Source: Candidatus Bathyarchaeota archaeon BA2 (GTDB lineage Archaea > Thermoproteota > Bathyarchaeia > Bathyarchaeales > Bathyarchaeaceae). Taken from it: a DNA stretch of 34,259 nt. The stretch is taken from NCBI GenBank assembly GCA_001399795.1, contig LIHK01000053.1:1-34259 (forward strand), written 5' to 3'. This document shows, one piece after another, positions 1-10,057 of this stretch (position 1 is the first letter of the stretch; every line of letters starts with the position of its first letter). Below the pieces are notes generated by a model. The model did not search any database, was not told the DNA's origin, and saw only the letters and a list, made by a program, of their open reading frames with translations. Both the position numbers and the translations under genes were made by a program.

Positions 1-768
1 TGGGGCATCTACCTCCTTCGCACAGCATACGCCTCAATAAAGGACCGCGACGTACATTGGGGTTACGACGAGAGAATGCACACGGTAGTGGGGGATGCTT
101 ATGTACGTCGCAGAATCCTACAGGATGCCCGGCTTAATCTAGAAAGTGAGATAGCTTTAAACTTAGTTCGTGACGCTGGTGAAAGCGATTACTTGCTTCT
201 CGATGGCGCTAGCTACTTCGGTGGGGAAAGGAAGTTTTGGGTTGATTTGTATGGAAAATGCAAAGAAAAGGGAATTAAACTTCTAGCAATAAGTAAACAA
301 TCTCCAGCGCTTCACGATGAGAAAGGTCGGGACCTGGTGGCTGCGACGTACATGCTTTCTTTTCATCCTCTATGGATCTATTATCCTGTCACAAGGGCGA
401 ACATACATGAACACCTGTATGGCGACGTGTCCATCATAAAATTATGTGAAGAAAGCTCGCGCGTTTTCCGTTGCGATATAATGGAATATTTAACCCATTA
501 TCGCGAAGTACCTGAGCTAATTTCTCCACTTATATCTATCTCAGAAGATCCAAGGTGTATTGGATATCCTGTCACCCTCTGGCTTGCTCACGATTTCTCT
601 ACACCATCCGACTCAAAGCTCCTCCACCATCATGACCAAGTTGAGGAAACGCTGGCTGACGCTGGATTATTAGATGTACTCCGCATAGAAGAACTCTCGT
701 GCAACTTTCCAGACGAACTTCATGGGGTAAAACATCCATTTGAGCGGGAGTGGATTGAACATGTCTGA
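1..768 (+). CDS. nurA: NurA-family nuclease, C-terminal part (5' end outside window)
   Basis: The frame is open from the first base, so the protein is cut by the window edge; the ATG at position 76 is internal. About 255 residues are visible. They include 'LLDGASYF', a 'YGDVSIIKLCEES' stretch and a late 'LAHDF' motif, the pattern I associate with NurA, the 5'-3' nuclease that resects DNA ends with HerA. The stop overlaps the herA start by 8 nt, so the two are translationally coupled; NurA-HerA pairing is a well-known archaeal arrangement and supports the call. The N-terminal nuclease motif cannot be checked because it lies upstream. No mre11 or rad50 is seen in this window, although they could lie to the left. 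Confidence 0.75.
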   Translation, partial: WGIYLLRTAYASIKDRDVHWGYDERMHTVVGDAYVRRRILQDARLNLESEIALNLVRDAGESDYLLLDGASYFGGERKFWVDLYGKCKEKGIKLLAISKQSPALHDEKGRDLVAATYMLSFHPLWIYYPVTRANIHEHLYGDVSIIKLCEESSRVFRCDIMEYLTHYREVPELISPLISISEDPRCIGYPVTLWLAHDFSTPSDSKLLHHHDQVEETLADAGLLDVLRIEELSCNFPDELHGVKHPFEREWIEHV

Positions 769-2314
769 GCCCGTAGGGTTTATTCGTGAAGTGAAGGGGG
801 ATGAGGTTTCCTTCTTCCTTAACCGAGGGGCTAACCTTTCGTTTGGTCAGATAGTGAGAGTAGACTCGGGCAATAGAAGCTTTTATGCGCGGGTCGTGGA
901 TGCTGGGAGTTCCTCTACGCTAAAGATGGACGAGCAACTTCGGGAAGCGGAGGGAAAGGAATCCTTCGGGCCTTACTCCAGCTATAGACACGTTGACGCC
1001 ATCCTCTTTCTTGAGAAGGAAGCCGGGAGAATCCGTTCTCCAACCTTCAACCCCAACTACATGGACAAAGTGTACGCCGCCAGCCAGGAAGATTGTTCGG
1101 TTTTGAGGCTTGGTGGGGATTTGGAAATAGGGCGTTTGCGCTCTGGAGAACAGGTGCTTGGCCCCGTGGGCATAAGTGTTGAAGCTATCCCCCTCATGAT
1201 GGGCATGTTTGGAATGACAGGGTCCGGAAAAACGAATTGTGAATTGATGCTTAACGCGCGGATTATAGATTCGAGTCCAAGTACTGTTGGTCTAATTTTC
1301 GACTTTGCGGGTCAGCTTCTTGAGGGTAAAGGAATAACACCTCAACGAGGTCTAAGGGATCATCCGCTCTTTCACACTAGAGTTCACTACTACTCAGCCA
1401 GAGAAAAGAAGATGCTCATTGGCTTGTATACAATTCAACCCCAAAAACTTTACACATTTTTCCCCGACATAACTCATCATCAAGTTAGGCTTGCTCAGAA
1501 GCTCTACAAGAGCTTGGGAGGCACTTGGATAGAACAGTCGCAAGAAGCCTATGGTAGAGAAGGACACAAGGGCGTGGCTGGCCTTACCGACTACAAGAGC
1601 AAAGCTGTGATAGACGCCCTTATGCTCAAACTTTCAAGTTTGTCTCCAAGCCTCTTTCCACCGTCCGACTACAGTTTCGTAGACGATGTGGTTCAGAATG
1701 TGAGCAAAGGCGTCACTTGCCTCATCGATATTTCAGGGATCAGTTTCGAGGAGCAACACCACGTGACATGCCTCACAGCTTCCAGCGTCGCCTTTCACTA
1801 CAAGCGGATGTGGGAAGGTAATTTTGAAGAGTGGAAAAAGCTTCCCACCCTTCTCATAACCTTGGAAGAAGCCCATGAGTTCCTTGATCCCAACATGCCT
1901 AAAACAATATTCTCCGATATCGCTCTGACGTACCGAAAGTATCGTGTTGGGCTGAACGCCGTGACACCGCGGCCTTCAAGAATAAACCCTAACGTCTTCG
2001 CCGAGCTTTGGACCAAGGTCATTATGAAGACGGAGCTGCGTCGCGACAGGGATTACCTCACCGAAAACACGCCTTACCTGGAGTACAGCGGCACTGAGAT
2101 AAAGATGCTTGATGTTGGTGAAGCCCTGCTCATCTCAGAACCGCAAATTCGATTCGCTGTTCCGATAAAGGTCATTCACTACCCTGACTACTTGGACGAG
2201 AGGGGGAGAGTCGAATATGATTTGCCGCCGTCAAAACCGCTTTCCGAAATGGATGAGAAGCTGAGGAGAATTCGTCAGGCTGGAGAGTCTCTTGTTGCGA
2301 AAGGTGAAGGTTAA
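761..2314 (+). CDS. herA: HerA-type hexameric DNA helicase/translocase
   Basis: This 517-residue protein has an N-terminal HAS-barrel-like region (residues ~5-60, 'VGFIREVKGDEVSFFL'). A RecA-fold ATPase follows, with Walker A GMTGSGKT at ~151-158 and Walker B 'LLITLEEAHEF' with EEAH at ~369-372. An arginine-rich segment lies further on ('TYRKYRVGLNAVTPRPSR'). This is the HerA/FtsK-like ring translocase that drives NurA in end resection. I chose ATG 761 over the TTG at 740 because GGGAG lies about 10 nt upstream of it and it overlaps the nurA stop by only 8 nt. The 3' end overlaps the convergent gene by 3 nt. Confidence 0.9.
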   Translation: MSEPVGFIREVKGDEVSFFLNRGANLSFGQIVRVDSGNRSFYARVVDAGSSSTLKMDEQLREAEGKESFGPYSSYRHVDAILFLEKEAGRIRSPTFNPNYMDKVYAASQEDCSVLRLGGDLEIGRLRSGEQVLGPVGISVEAIPLMMGMFGMTGSGKTNCELMLNARIIDSSPSTVGLIFDFAGQLLEGKGITPQRGLRDHPLFHTRVHYYSAREKKMLIGLYTIQPQKLYTFFPDITHHQVRLAQKLYKSLGGTWIEQSQEAYGREGHKGVAGLTDYKSKAVIDALMLKLSSLSPSLFPPSDYSFVDDVVQNVSKGVTCLIDISGISFEEQHHVTCLTASSVAFHYKRMWEGNFEEWKKLPTLLITLEEAHEFLDPNMPKTIFSDIALTYRKYRVGLNAVTPRPSRINPNVFAELWTKVIMKTELRRDRDYLTENTPYLEYSGTEIKMLDVGEALLISEPQIRFAVPIKVIHYPDYLDERGRVEYDLPPSKPLSEMDEKLRRIRQAGESLVAKGEG

Positions 2315-3021
2315 ACCTTAGCTTCCCTTTTCTTCAGAATTTTCAACATCTCTTCTTTAAGGCGGTATGTGTACGGCATTTTTCTTGTATCCCTCTCCAA
2401 ATAACCATCTCCATAGAGCTTTTTCATAAGGCGGGCTGTGTGCTCCCTTGTAAGCCCTATCCTTTCTCTTATTTCAGGGGCCGTCTTTCCCCCCTCTTTG
2501 GCAAGGATCTCAAGTACAGCTAGTTCGGTTTCCGTTAAGGGAGCCAAGGCCTTTTCCTTTTTGATTGGAATAGCCGCCTCTATTTTTGCTTCAGATATTG
2601 GAGCTTTATATCCCACCTTTTCAATCTTCACGATCCTTTGAACTAACCGTTCTTGCGACGCTATTAAGCCGTTAACCTTCTTGTCCACCTTCTCGATTTG
2701 CGTAGATAAATTCTGTTTAATCTCGGAAACGGCTTCAATTTTACCCGCAAGATCTGCTAATCGTCTATCCTGTTTCTCCATTTTATCCACAATTTTTTTC
2801 CCTTCAAAGGAAACTACCTCTGTTTCGTGGATGGCAATACTGAGCCTATCCTCTTGCTTCTGAAACTGTCTGTTAAAACTTATGACAATGTCATCAACGA
2901 CGCCCTTTGCTTCTTCATATTCCTCACTAACCCTTCTTATCCGCCTATAGTATAAGACAGACGCACCCATCGTTATGAGCAATATGGTGGCTACAACCAT
3001 CAGAAGAAGATCAGAATACAC
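2311..3021 (-). CDS. Membrane-anchored coiled-coil winged-helix regulator
   Basis: The 236 residues fall into three parts. There is one hydrophobic segment at ~5-24 ('LLLMVVATILLITMGASVLYY') followed by RRIRR. A long charged helical/coiled-coil region spans ~30-145. A C-terminal winged helix lies at ~160-236, with 'LTETELAVLEILAKEGGKTA' leading into a recognition helix and 'LYGDGYLERDTRK'. It looks like a DNA-binding domain tethered to the membrane by a coiled-coil stalk. The start is GTG 3021, preceded by AGGAGGG at 7-9 nt. A T-rich TATA-like element (about 3088-3098, minus strand) adjoins the first GTGAT box cluster, so that cluster could control this gene. Ligand and targets are unknown. 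It converges on herA with a 3-nt overlap. Confidence 0.7.
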   Translation of the reverse strand: MYSDLLLMVVATILLITMGASVLYYRRIRRVSEEYEEAKGVVDDIVISFNRQFQKQEDRLSIAIHETEVVSFEGKKIVDKMEKQDRRLADLAGKIEAVSEIKQNLSTQIEKVDKKVNGLIASQERLVQRIVKIEKVGYKAPISEAKIEAAIPIKKEKALAPLTETELAVLEILAKEGGKTAPEIRERIGLTREHTARLMKKLYGDGYLERDTRKMPYTYRLKEEMLKILKKREAKV

Positions 3022-3098
3022 TGTTTGCCCTCCTCTAAACTGTTAGATTGAATGAAAGAAGTAGATCATGCAAAATGAAATACGGGAGTAATAAAATT

Positions 3099-3148
3099 GT
3101 GATGCGAGTGTGATCTGCTGTGATCTGCATAACGTGATCACATATCAC
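3099..3148. repeat. GTGAT box cluster A (helically phased)
   Basis: GTGAT occurs at 3099, 3110, 3120 and 3134, and its complement ATCAC at 3137 and 3144. The first three copies are 11 and 10 bp apart, about one helical turn. TGTGATCTGC is a perfect tandem decamer (3109-3118 and 3119-3128). GTGATCAC at 3134-3141 is a perfect palindrome. The cluster lies directly upstream of the TATA-like element of the membrane-anchored regulator. Confidence 0.8.
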
Positions 3149-3212
3149 ACTTTCGTGTGGTTTAACTTAAGTTTTATGTTTAATTAAGAGCAATTTGCCG
3201 TTATCTAAAATC

Positions 3213-3229
3213 GTGACATCACAAGTCAC
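3213..3229. repeat. GTGAC dyad related to the GTGAT boxes
   Basis: The arms are GTGAC (3213-3217) and GTCAC (3225-3229), with an ATCAC at 3218-3222 between them. It lies between clusters A and B and reads as a variant of the same box. Confidence 0.6.
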
Positions 3230-3420
3230 AGTCGTACCGCAAAAACTACTAGACTAGAATGCCTTGGGATTTAACAGGAAACTCCTTTGACATTACCCTT
3301 TTCTTGTTTTTATCTGCTTGACGGAATCAGCGTGTATGATGCCTCGTTATCAAAAAGGAGTTAAATTTGAGCTTGAATTCAATGTAAGCTGTATGCTGCG
3401 TTAATTATCGCCTTTATTGC

Positions 3421-3484
3421 TGTGAGACTTGCTGTGAAATTAACAGACATTTGGTCTGTGAGACGTTGTGATTTGTGATATCAC
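3421..3484. repeat. TGTGA/GTGAT box cluster B
   Basis: TGTGA occurs at 3421, 3433, 3457, 3467 and 3474; the octamer TGTGAGAC is repeated exactly at 3421-3428 and 3457-3464. The cluster ends in GTGATATCAC (3475-3484), a perfect 10-bp palindrome that includes the stop codon of the neighbouring minus-strand gene. Confidence 0.75.
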
Positions 3485-3957
3485 AGGTTCTTCGACATGG
3501 TTCCTGGTTTAGATAATTGTTCTAAATTTGACTCTAGTTCTTCGCGAAGCGTGCTTATTATTCTTAAATATTCGTTTATTTCTTTTTTTCCTTTGATATC
3601 TCTGTAGGCTTTCATGTAAGTTTGCAGTTTGTTTGCAACCTCCAGATAAGGGTCGAGACCTGCGTCCTCGAAAACTCCCAAGTATCCGAGGAGGAGAATC
3701 GTATAAATAGATTGAATGACGTTTCGCCTAGCTTGCCTCAAAGTTCTGTTAAAAGCACCCCGACTTACGGCTGAAAGCCTTAATTTGGCTTTTTGGTCAT
3801 ATTTTAATGATTTTCCGGATATATTTTCTGCTAAAACATCAATTAAAAGCGTTTCCAGCTGCGTTTTCGTTAAATTGCTATTTTTTGCCAGTATTTTTCC
3901 AATCGGATCATTTAATGATTGTTTTATCCATTTTTGGGCCTCTTCCTTCAGGTGCAA
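3481..3957 (-). CDS. Unrecognised helical protein between GTGAT box clusters
   Basis: I do not recognise this 158-residue protein with certainty. It is predicted to be all-helical and fairly basic, with 'VSRGAFNRTLRQARRNVIQS' followed by 'IYTILLLGYLG', a hydrophobic helix that could be structural rather than membrane-spanning. The only usual start is TTG 3957. However, the same frame stays open to about 4025 and reads like protein (KDWFEAKLLHLKEE), without any ATG/GTG/TTG. A TATA-like element (4040-4047, minus strand) would place the transcript start near 4018, inside that extension. The true N-terminus is therefore uncertain. The gene is isolated, with boxes at its 3' end and a second set about 420 bp upstream. 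A DNA-binding role in the same system is only a guess. Confidence 0.6.
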   Translation of the reverse strand: MHLKEEAQKWIKQSLNDPIGKILAKNSNLTKTQLETLLIDVLAENISGKSLKYDQKAKLRLSAVSRGAFNRTLRQARRNVIQSIYTILLLGYLGVFEDAGLDPYLEVANKLQTYMKAYRDIKGKKEINEYLRIISTLREELESNLEQLSKPGTMSKNL

Positions 3958-4516
3958 TAGTTTTGCCTCGAACCAGTCTTTAAAGGATACATTTTTGTAT
4001 ACTGGTAAAAAAGACTTACGGTTTTATTCCTACAGGTTATATAAATTTGTTTAACTTTCATTGCAAAAATTGCAAAAGTAAATATTTAGATAATATAAAG
4101 ACACAAATTTGCAGGAAAATATATGTTGTTAAAACATTTTAAGAATGACAGAAAAGCATAGAGACATCGCGTCACCCGGTGTTCGCGCTTTCTCACAAAG
4201 TACAAGTTATTCTAAAGGGGGCATTAACTCGGAATTGGTAATCTGAATTTTACTTCGCCTAACAGTGTTCAATAGGTAGCTTAGAAAATGTGGATTAGGT
4301 GGAACATATTCGTTGATGGGGGGTGTTTCATGTTCTTGATTCCATGTTTGAGAGTAATAATTAAGGTTAATGTCCAACATCGTGATTTCTGTGATTTGTT
4401 GGAATCACGGACAGATCACGTGTGATTATCACAAATTTTCCCCTTTTCAAGAAACCTTTTTAGTTCTATTTCCATGTCCTCATTCTTTTTGGCATATAGT
4501 CTTTTCCAACAGTTCT
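3958..4516. other. AT-rich gene-free stretch
   Basis: It contains the possible N-terminal extension and promoter of the preceding minus-strand gene (TATA-like 4040-4047). A very A/T-rich tract spans about 4021-4145. A near-palindrome with CGCG ends lies at 4168-4187, and box cluster C is at 4382-4432. I see no other gene; an untranslated RNA cannot be excluded. Confidence 0.6.
4382..4432. repeat. GTGAT/ATCAC box cluster C
   Basis: Six boxes lie within 51 bp: GTGAT at 4382, 4391 and 4422; ATCAC at 4404, 4415 and 4428. The motif is the same as in cluster A, but the orientations alternate more. The cluster lies 3' of nadE and far upstream of the orphan gene's promoter, so it is not placed like a simple operator. 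Confidence 0.8.
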
Positions 4517-6643: not shown

Positions 6644-9600
6644 TTGGTAGTCAGGATGAGTAAAGAGTATCAGCAATACGCAACTGCTTTAGAAAAAGGA
6701 CTTGAAAGCATATACGAGGTTGCGAGAAAGGCAAGAGAGAAGGGATTAGACCCAGCCATTAGCCCCGAGCCTGAAGTAGCAAAGGATTTAGCCGAACTTG
6801 TTGAGGGACTTGTTGGTCCTCCCGGGGTTGCTGAAAGTATACGGGATTTGGGCAAGAAGTTGCCGCGCGAAGAGCTTGCCTTCAAGATTGCTGAACAGAT
6901 CATTTATGGAAAGTTTGGGCACATGGACGCGCGTGAAGCAGCCGAGCAGGCGATAAGGACAGCCCTCGCCATATTAACTGAGGGAATTACCGCTGCTCCT
7001 TTGCAAGGTGTGGCGCGAGTAGCCATCAAATTTAATCCTGATCGAACAAGATACCTTGCAATTTACTACGCCGGTCCAATACGTTCTGCAGGTGGCACTG
7101 AGCAGGCCTTAACATTAGTGATCGGAGATTTTGTTCGCCGCCTGCTCGGTTTAGATCGTTACAAACCAACTGAGGAAGAGATTAGGCGTTTTATAGAAGA
7201 AGTGCGCCTATTTGAGCGGGCGGTGGCTCGGTTCCAATATCGTGTTTCTGACGAGGAGTTAAGGAGGACTCTTGAGTCCATTCCAGTGGAAGTTACTGGC
7301 ACAGAATCAGATCCGATTGAAGTCTCATCCTTCCGTAACCTGCCCCGCATCGAGACAAACCGAGTGCGAGGAGGAGCGCTCCGCGTTGTAAACGATGGGG
7401 TCGTAGGGCGCTCCGCAAAAGTGTGGACGATCGTTGAGAAACTAGGAATAGAAGGATGGGACTGGTTGAAAAGAATAAGGGAAATTGAGGAAAAAAGAAC
7501 GGCGGGATTTATGGAAGACATCATCGCCGGCCGTCCCATCTTCTCATTTCCGTCTAGACGTGGAGGCTTCAGGCTTCGCTACGGGAGGGCTAGAAACACA
7601 GGCTTGGCAGCGGTGGGTATTCATCCGGCGACTATGATGGTTCTTCAACAATTTCTAGCCGCAGGAACGCAGTTGCGCATCGAAGGGCCGGGAAAGGCTG
7701 GGGTTGTCGTTCCCGTAGATGCGATAGAGCCTCCAGTTGTACGATTAAAAGATGGGTCTGTCGTCCGCGTTTCAATTCAAAATTTTGAAAAGATAAAAAA
7801 TGTGGTTGACAAAATTCTATTTCTTGGCGACATTCTCATAGGATTTGGCGACTTCTTATATAACAATAAAACCCTCCTTCCGTCTGGTTTCACTGAAGAA
7901 TGGTGGCGTGAAGAGTTCCGCTCTGTTATCAAAAAGAATTTTAATGACGATTTAGAAGAGGCCGCAGCAGCCGTGAAGATTCCTGCCAGTCGTCTTGAAG
8001 GCATGTTGAACGACTCATTTAAAAATAAGCCGACCGCCAAAGAAGCGATAACGTTAGCCTTAAATTTCCAAGTGCCTCTTCACCCGTCCTTCACGTTTTT
8101 CTGGTCCAGTATTTCCTCTGAAGATTTCCAAAAGTTGCGGAAATGGCTCTTAAGTTCAAAAAGTCAAGTTGAGGATGAGGTTGTCCAAGAAATAACTGGC
8201 GTGAAGAACGAGGAGATAAAAGGGCTTCTTGAAAGGATATGTGTGCCGCATAAAATCGTTGAAAACAAAATTAAAATAGAAAACGATGAAGCATATATCT
8301 TCGCTTTTTGCCTTGGTCTACATACCCCTAAAGCGAGGATAGTTCGCACAGAAACCGTCTTTAAAATCATTAGAAAGCTTACTGGTGTTGTTATCAGAGA
8401 AAAAGCTCCGACTCTTGTCGGCGCCAGGATGGGGCGCCCGGAAAAGGCTAAGAGACGGGAGATGAGGCCGCTTGTTCACGTGCTTTTCCCTGTTGGGCTG
8501 GCTGGTGGGTCTCGCCGAAACATTTCAGAAGCGTTGAGCAAAGTTTCGATTGAAGTTGACCTTGTTAAGCGGCAATGTCCAGACTGTAAAACATCAACCT
8601 TTAAAATAAAGTGTCCAAATTGCGGCGCGGAAACTACTTTGGAAAAATCTTGCCCTCAATGTGGGAGGCGTCTAAATCAAGGCTTTTGTCCAGTTTGTAA
8701 AGTACCAACAAGAAGCTACGGGAAACAATCGATTAATCTTAAGGAGTTAATGGATGAAGCTTGCAGAAAGCTAAATCTTCCCATCCCTGACCTTGTTAAG
8801 GGCGTAAAGGGTTTAACAAATGAAACAAAGACAGTGGAGACTCTTGAAAAGGGGATTCTGCGGGCGAAACACGACCTATCCGTTTTCAAAGACGGAACAA
8901 TAAGGTTCGACGCCACAAATGCTCCATTAACGCATTTTAAAGCAACTGAAATCGGCGTGTCTGTTGAAAGACTTCGACAGCTTGGCTACTACTACGACAG
9001 CAATGGAAACAGCTTAACCGACCCCGATCAGATATGTGAACTTAAGGTGCAGGACGTGGTTATTCCACTAAAATGCGCGGAATATTTTGTTCGCGTAGCA
9101 AACTTCATAGACGAACTTCTGGAAAAGGTGTACGAGTTACCCCCATACTACGAAGTTAAACGGGTTGATGACCTAGTTGGGCGTCTGGTTGTGGGCTTGG
9201 CTCCCCATACCTCCGTAGGCATCCTCGGGAGGATCATAGGTTTCACTCGTCTTAACGTTTGTTATGCTCATCTCTTATGGCATTCGGCGAAGCGCAGGGA
9301 CTGCGACGGCGACGAGGATACGCTGATGCTGGCTTTGGACATGGTCTTGAATTTTTCTAAGGATTATTTGCCTGCTCAGATAGGTGGGATAATGGACGCG
9401 CCTCTGTTCATTATTCCTGTGGTGAATCCCTTAGAAGTGCAAAGGCAAGCTCATGAGGTCGATGTTGCTGCCGCGTATCCATCACTGTTTTATGAAAAAA
9501 CTTGGGAGAAGGCGGCACCCCAAAGAGTAAGCAAGCTCATAAACCTGATTGGGCACCGATTAAACACTGAGGCTCAGTTTCAGGGCTTCAAGTACACGGT

Positions 9601-10057
9601 TCCGGTTTCTGACATCAACATGGGCAACGATGAAAGCATGTATAAGAGATTGAAGCGAATGGTTGACAAGCTGAACAGTCAGCTAGCTTTGGCGGAAAAA
9701 ATTGAGGCTGTGGATGCTGGGACTGTTGCTAAAAAGGTTTTGACCACGCACTTTGTTCGCGACATAGCTGGCAACCTAAGGGCTTTCACCACTCAAAACT
9801 TTCGATGCAAATCCTGCAACAAACGGTTCAGAAGACTACCTCTCCGAGGCAAGTGCCCAGAGTGTGGAGGTGCCATAACCCTAACCGTCTATCGCGGGGG
9901 GATTGAGAAATACTTGGAGGCGGCGCATCAACTTATTCAGAAGTACGGTCTTTCCGACTATTACGCTCAAAGACTTTCCCTAGTTGAAGATGAAATCAGT
10001 TCATTGTTCGAGGGCAAGAAACCAAAACAAATCAGCCTCGCAGACTTCATCGCCTAA
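6644..10057 (+). CDS. polC: DNA polymerase D large (catalytic) subunit DP2
   Basis: The 1137-residue catalytic subunit of the archaeal replicative polymerase PolD acts with DP1, whose gene is not in this window. The invariant acidic motif DCDGDED lies at ~886-892 within 'HSAKRRDCDGDEDTLML'. One cysteine-rich zinc region begins at residue ~645 (CPDC, CPNC, CPQC, CPVC) and another at ~1055 (CKSC ... CPEC). The tail ends in QISLADFI (1129-1136), which fits a PCNA-interacting peptide. There is no intein: length and motif spacing are ordinary. TTG 6644 has AAGGGGG at good spacing; ATG 6656 is the alternative. It is followed by a small winged-helix gene. Confidence 0.97.
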   Translation: MVVRMSKEYQQYATALEKGLESIYEVARKAREKGLDPAISPEPEVAKDLAELVEGLVGPPGVAESIRDLGKKLPREELAFKIAEQIIYGKFGHMDAREAAEQAIRTALAILTEGITAAPLQGVARVAIKFNPDRTRYLAIYYAGPIRSAGGTEQALTLVIGDFVRRLLGLDRYKPTEEEIRRFIEEVRLFERAVARFQYRVSDEELRRTLESIPVEVTGTESDPIEVSSFRNLPRIETNRVRGGALRVVNDGVVGRSAKVWTIVEKLGIEGWDWLKRIREIEEKRTAGFMEDIIAGRPIFSFPSRRGGFRLRYGRARNTGLAAVGIHPATMMVLQQFLAAGTQLRIEGPGKAGVVVPVDAIEPPVVRLKDGSVVRVSIQNFEKIKNVVDKILFLGDILIGFGDFLYNNKTLLPSGFTEEWWREEFRSVIKKNFNDDLEEAAAAVKIPASRLEGMLNDSFKNKPTAKEAITLALNFQVPLHPSFTFFWSSISSEDFQKLRKWLLSSKSQVEDEVVQEITGVKNEEIKGLLERICVPHKIVENKIKIENDEAYIFAFCLGLHTPKARIVRTETVFKIIRKLTGVVIREKAPTLVGARMGRPEKAKRREMRPLVHVLFPVGLAGGSRRNISEALSKVSIEVDLVKRQCPDCKTSTFKIKCPNCGAETTLEKSCPQCGRRLNQGFCPVCKVPTRSYGKQSINLKELMDEACRKLNLPIPDLVKGVKGLTNETKTVETLEKGILRAKHDLSVFKDGTIRFDATNAPLTHFKATEIGVSVERLRQLGYYYDSNGNSLTDPDQICELKVQDVVIPLKCAEYFVRVANFIDELLEKVYELPPYYEVKRVDDLVGRLVVGLAPHTSVGILGRIIGFTRLNVCYAHLLWHSAKRRDCDGDEDTLMLALDMVLNFSKDYLPAQIGGIMDAPLFIIPVVNPLEVQRQAHEVDVAAAYPSLFYEKTWEKAAPQRVSKLINLIGHRLNTEAQFQGFKYTVPVSDINMGNDESMYKRLKRMVDKLNSQLALAEKIEAVDAGTVAKKVLTTHFVRDIAGNLRAFTTQNFRCKSCNKRFRRLPLRGKCPECGGAITLTVYRGGIEKYLEAAHQLIQKYGLSDYYAQRLSLVEDEISSLFEGKKPKQISLADFIA

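Follow-up and report, generated by a model that had tools for sequence, protein, structure and literature searches.

Three dense clusters of a TGTGAT/ATCACA box surround a small conserved gene, p158, in the genome of Candidatus Bathyarchaeota archaeon BA2, and form an array that is conserved among relatives, linked to the replication origin and co-occurrent with a neighbouring winged-helix gene, without depending on the promoter of that gene. The odds are estimated at about one in two that this is a dedicated array which, when bound by the neighbouring, putatively membrane-anchored winged-helix protein, tethers or organises the origin-proximal chromosome, a reading built on comparative sequence data. 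The window, i.e. the whole stretch of 34,259 nucleotides analysed, is contig C51 of a MAG.

Cluster A (3099-3148) lies between the p158 and winged-helix genes, is kept in relatives and contains six GTGAT/ATCAC boxes, starting at 3099, 3110, 3120, 3134, 3137 and 3144, so that the first spacings are 11 and 10 bp; a tandem decamer, TGTGATCTGC, occupies 3109-3128 and is accompanied by the palindrome GTGATCAC. Cluster B (3421-3485) consists of TGTGATTTGTGATATCACA, which overlaps p158 at its 3' end, and three degenerate TGTGA sequences (3421, 3433 and 3458), with GTGAT/ATCAC starts at 3468, 3475 and 3480 (GTGATATCAC). Cluster C (4382-4433) is found approximately 0.43 kb upstream of the p158 start, past the NadE stop, and its six boxes start at 4382, 4391, 4404, 4415, 4422 and 4428. 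No strand is assigned to any of the three. An earlier, sequence-only reading had placed three clusters here with five to six boxes in A and C, and six were found in each; the 10-11 bp first spacings, tandem decamer and palindromes that it described were likewise confirmed in the sequence. Its estimate of about one box per 500 bp by chance was close to the measured background of 0.85 per 500 bp. Counted per ~60 bp, A and C contain six boxes each and B three (plus the degenerate copies), and the densest 60 bp holds six; dinucleotide shuffling of the whole window, repeated 200 times, never gave more than three, and outside the clusters the window itself reaches two at most. Throughout the 1.46-Mb genome, the pattern TGTGAT-n-TGTGAT-n-ATCACA occurs in these three clusters only; equally dense clusters all over the genome, which would have counted against the earlier reading, were not found. 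Rfam and tRNA scans gave no match, and an ORF on the forward strand (3716-4054) was rejected as a gene, being the opposite-strand shadow of p158.

Conservation of the boxes near p158 homologues had been suggested as a check, and was observed. The window is bathyarchaeial, the relatives named by a scan of genome contigs being Candidatus Bathyarchaeota/Bathyarchaeia, with Candidatus Bathyarchaeum tardum among them. Of the 27 family genomes, 20 have the dense pattern, at a single locus with two or three clusters ~1.2 kb apart; only one of the 27 (G026) has an extra single match, on another contig, and the reversed control pattern had no matches in the family genomes. The dense pattern also flanks p158 in 88 of 163 genomes of the order, with a handful of control matches, and is found in 22 of 79 further genomes of the class, other orders included. 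The core of cluster B recurs at the 3' end of p158 in a family (f27) of another order. Among 110 loci, boxes on the same strand are most often spaced by 7 bp (264 pairs) or by 10-11 bp (172 pairs), then by 21-22 bp, and convergent boxes by 7 or 14 bp, which gives TGTGAT-n-TGTGAT-ATCACA as a unit that recurs in helical phase. Relative to the p158 start, boxes in the 110 loci peak at about -500, +470 and +700 bp, with depletion across the gene body; the upstream peak spans -400 to -600 bp, comparable with cluster C, and the position of cluster A abuts the winged-helix gene start in most genomes. In two near-complete genomes (G027 and G141), and in the less complete G100, p158, the winged-helix gene and the boxes are all missing. 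No paper describing the array or the p158 locus was found in the open-access literature.

The candidate box binder is encoded at 2311-3021 on the reverse strand, and combines a predicted N-terminal transmembrane (TM) segment and a coiled coil with a C-terminal MarR/TrmB-like winged helix-turn-helix (wHTH) domain (Pfam matches to MarR, 3.1e-07, and TrmB, 1.9e-06). All 27 aligned members have the hydrophobic TM segment, which is called by hydropathy only, and TREHTARLMKKLY is near-invariant in the protein. Loci with this gene carry a mean of 11.8 TGTGAT boxes within 1.6 kb of p158 (3.2 kb), against 1.25 expected, whereas loci without it carry 1.8, against 1.2 expected; at least three boxes in 100 bp occur in 112 of 119 loci with the gene and in one of ten without. 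The co-occurrence is significant by Fisher's test (5e-9 at locus level, p ~0.011 at family level), with the provision that loci are phylogenetically non-independent and that, on the Orc1 tree, two to five changes explain the gene-less, box-less loci. The winged-helix gene was undetectable genome-wide in seven families (f11, f12, f13, f15, f16, f17 and f22), in which box clusters were also not found and in most of which p158 and Orc1 were. The exception among the ten gene-less loci is L167 (G216), with weak boxes around p158. Conversely, seven loci on the tree possess the gene and no TGTGAT cluster, with families f10 and f14 among them, in which the gene is divergent, and in families f35 and f39 a short TM-winged-helix gene stands beside p158 with no clear boxes. 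In four loci of the latter two families (L248, L252, L253 and L255), p158 and the short gene overlap or abut, and there is no Orc1 within 10 kb. Three f10 loci (L155-L157), with weak TGTGAT boxes and a divergent winged-helix protein, show enrichment of AGCTTG/GCTTGA-type hexamers around p158, which are possibly a changed box.

The gene p158 itself (3481-3957, reverse strand) had been described as an orphan of 158 aa, a description that does not hold, given that it is a single-copy core gene of the class with homologues across the phylum Thermoproteota, including Nitrosopumilus, although weaker in a family fitting Nitrosopumilaceae. A profile search, confirmed on a subset, detected it in 213 of 257 class genomes and in 113 of 120 near-complete ones, usually as a single copy, and identity among family members is 60-80%. 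Sequence and fold comparisons of p158 with Pfam, NCBIfam and the PDB found no family. An AlphaFold model from 97 sequences (pLDDT 89.5), used in place of a poor earlier model from 16 sequences (pLDDT 69), is all-helical, and its central segment appears helix-turn-helix-like by eye; the sole fold match of DNA-binding kind was sigma region 4 (1ku7), which at E 7.9 is not significant. An 18-bp palindrome without assigned strand, GGATACATTTTTGTATAC, is situated at 3985-4002, 28-45 nt upstream of the p158 start, and is a probable p158 operator, which the sequence-only reading had not mentioned. This single-copy palindrome can also be written GTATACAAAAnTGTATCC; its core ATAC-N6-GTAT is there in 135 of 140 loci, and matches to a degenerate form elsewhere in the family genomes were at control (chance) level. 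The palindrome is also upstream of p158 in Nitrosopumilus-like genomes (Nitrososphaeria), and a TACA-N4-TGTA form occurs there in several other lineages. The TACA-N4-TGTA palindrome is probably an operator to which p158 itself binds.

To our knowledge, no replication origin has been mapped in Bathyarchaeia. In almost every genome of the family, the main orc1/cdc6 gene is close to the clusters. Of 140 loci, 116 include Orc1, at a median distance of 4.6 kb from p158 (range 1.5-7.6 kb), and in 112 of these 116 it is downstream of p158. Scanning with the published common ORB motif (PMC4164010) identified at least two ORB-like sites in 91 of 101 non-redundant loci, with canonical, G-string-bearing ORBs beside orc1; 250 of 262 matches are less than 4 kb from Orc1, centred 2.4-4.9 kb from the p158 start. 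The motif (TCCA-GAAA with a G-string) is absent at the clusters, consistent with the earlier observation that the box is unlike the known archaeal ORB (TGTGAT as against TCCA..GAAA..GGGGT). For the genome from which the window derives (G000), three ORBs at positions 1779, 1984 and 2168 of contig C3 (C3:1779-2187) precede Orc1 (C3:2421-3503), and are likely to constitute its conventional oriC, which would be located beyond the left end of the window, synteny pointing to a junction of C3 with C51 there. In the family, the HerA helicase gene (740-2314, forward strand) is a syntenic marker between the array and oriC, and the gene for the PolD large subunit DP2 (6644-10057, forward strand) is a further marker; both were identified by Pfam, as the sequence-only reading had proposed, but the NurA that it also named is a guess from position only. 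In one genome (G004:C1), a single contig carries the array and orc1 at a great distance from each other (407 kb compared with 1437 kb), with no ORBs near the array, a separation attributable to rearrangement or assembly error.

The AT-rich tract upstream of p158 (4021-4145, no strand) has an AT content of 79%, practically the highest of any 125-bp stretch in the window, which bears out that part of the earlier description. In relatives, however, the most AT-rich stretch is usually at the ORBs and not at the boxes, and the tract was consequently rejected as a DUE. Skew analysis was uninformative: GC and AT skew in a single-contig relative (G024) gave a noisy curve that, apart from a weak AT-skew maximum, did not reach an extreme at the locus, and over half of the Nitrosopumilus maritimus chromosome nothing clear emerged. 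Box clusters are missing from loci that lack the winged-helix gene and keep Orc1, ORBs and p158. With the ORBs beside orc1 and the AT peak of relatives tending to fall at the ORBs, the clusters are linked to the origin without being origin boxes.

The arrangement extends beyond Bathyarchaeia. In a genome taken as N. maritimus SCM1 (1,645,259 bp), p158 and the winged-helix gene are adjacent and accompanied by clustered TGTGAT boxes; the pair is ~1-2 kb short of the record's end, and orc1 (1385-2560) is across the record junction. Two ORB-like sites are near this junction and at least ~0.7 kb away from any box, and reviews report a single mapped origin for this organism. Nitrosopumilus-like genomes share the layout, with boxes, and box enrichment near the p158/winged-helix pair was also noted in families f58, f61, f71 and f38. 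GTTAAC/TGTTAA repeats surround the ORB-like sites beside orc1 in N. maritimus (end of L261 and start of L268).

The main rival explanation is that of a local transcription operator array, in which box binding by the winged-helix protein would serve no purpose beyond the control of p158 and of the gene encoding that protein. Binding to repeats at their own locus is common among MarR/TrmB-like regulators, and the MarR/TrmB-type domain of the protein, the abutment of cluster A on its gene start in most genomes and the lack of a second dense site in the genome all speak for such control. This reading is nevertheless regarded as rather unlikely. In eight loci the winged-helix gene is separated from p158 by 1.4-3.5 kb. 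The 5' end of that gene is free of boxes in all eight, and an array persists at p158 in six of them, largely in the usual positions; as the array stays with p158, it is not simply the operator of the winged-helix gene's promoter. Moreover, operators are not usually placed as B is, over the 3' end of p158, or as C is, ~0.43 kb upstream; p158 already possesses a palindrome of its own, and the protein is predicted to be anchored in the membrane. The earlier suggestion of an operator array for this protein stands insofar as the boxes track its gene, but not as a simple promoter operator. Binding of the boxes by p158 rather than by the winged-helix protein is improbable, even though the boxes always surround p158, and remain there when the winged-helix gene moves, and p158 has a helix-turn-helix-like core, itself a weak finding. 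Ten loci have p158 without the winged-helix gene and nine of these are without box clusters, on which grounds p158 was largely rejected as the binder, and the palindrome tracks p158 far better.

That the clusters are themselves a replication origin, or its recognition boxes, was the main proposal of the sequence-only reading, and their phasing, the AT-rich tract and the proximity of orc1, DP2 and HerA are in keeping with it. It is now very improbable, considering that canonical ORBs are elsewhere, beside orc1 (on contig C3 in this genome), that the ORB-like sites of N. maritimus are at a distance from its boxes, and that boxes are missing from lineages in which orc1 and ORBs persist. The structural half of that proposal fares better, and fits the data better than a simple operator does. 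A functionless repeat cluster, produced by chance or mutation, is practically negligible as an explanation and is refuted by conservation: short boxes can cluster randomly, and nothing of weight adds to this, but shuffles never reach the observed density, the position is kept across orders and the family genomes have zero control matches.

Several known systems resemble the array in part. Archaeal origins of the Orc1-1 type with ORBs (Sulfolobus oriC1, Pyrococcus, haloarchaea) also have repeated boxes in two orientations near orc1 and replication genes, although the boxes described here track the winged-helix gene and not Orc1, and the real ORBs are separate. Bacterial ParB/parS is similar in having several sites for one site-specific protein within a few kilobases of the origin, but the candidate binder of the array carries its own membrane helix; no ParB, ParA, SegA or SegB was found among the ten proteins scanned (window positions 1-11.4 kb). 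MarR/TrmB-type autoregulated repressors share with the winged-helix protein the type of DNA-binding domain and repeats near the gene, and differ in that the latter is predicted to be membrane-anchored and that the boxes do not follow its promoter. A WhiP-defined origin would have the Cdt1-like initiator WhiP at the site; the Pfam matches of the winged-helix protein are to MarR and TrmB. In Sulfolobales, the sites of the partition protein SegB of the SegAB system are enriched near oriC1, and possible membrane tethers have been proposed (PMC12284271); SegB sites are scattered over the chromosome as well as lying beside segAB, in contrast to TGTGAT arrays, which occupy one locus. The Sulfolobus origin motif ucm (PMC12141716) is a similar case of an additional origin-linked element next to ORBs that has a protein of its own, the nucleoid-associated UBP. 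However, ucm is located within the DUE that separates the ORBs, and the genomic sites of UBP number in the hundreds, whereas the array boxes are kilobases from the ORBs and dense at one locus.

In the preferred reading, that of an anchoring array, clusters A, B and C would form one nucleoprotein array, separate from the ORB origin a few kilobases away, and the TM-coiled coil-winged-helix protein encoded next to the array would be its binder. The phased boxes flanking p158, in 7-bp and 10-11-bp steps, could accommodate several dimers of this protein, which may tether the origin-proximal chromosome to the membrane or loop it there, in the manner of a centromere or anchoring site; location at the membrane is proposed because of the N-terminal membrane helix. 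A part in segregation or in positioning of the origin would follow from such anchoring. The array possibly also tunes p158, which would be a second DNA-binding protein of the locus and may control itself through the TACA-N4-TGTA palindrome.

The positioning and segregation of chromosomes in archaea without a characterised SegAB is an open question, for which the locus is a concrete candidate, with a conserved oriC-linked array, a co-occurring DNA-binding protein with a putative membrane anchor, and a second probable DNA-binding protein with its palindrome. Its presence in the cultivable N. maritimus, with a single mapped origin, makes the idea directly testable, and the analysis also locates a conventional bathyarchaeial oriC. 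Tentatively, p158, the membrane-anchored winged-helix protein and the TGTGAT array may represent an undescribed origin-anchoring or partition module of Thermoproteota, which would have been beside oriC since before the split of Bathyarchaeia and Nitrososphaeria and would hold the origin region at the membrane. The findings suggest that Bathyarchaeia and their ammonia-oxidising relatives may hold or organise the origin region of the chromosome at the cell membrane.
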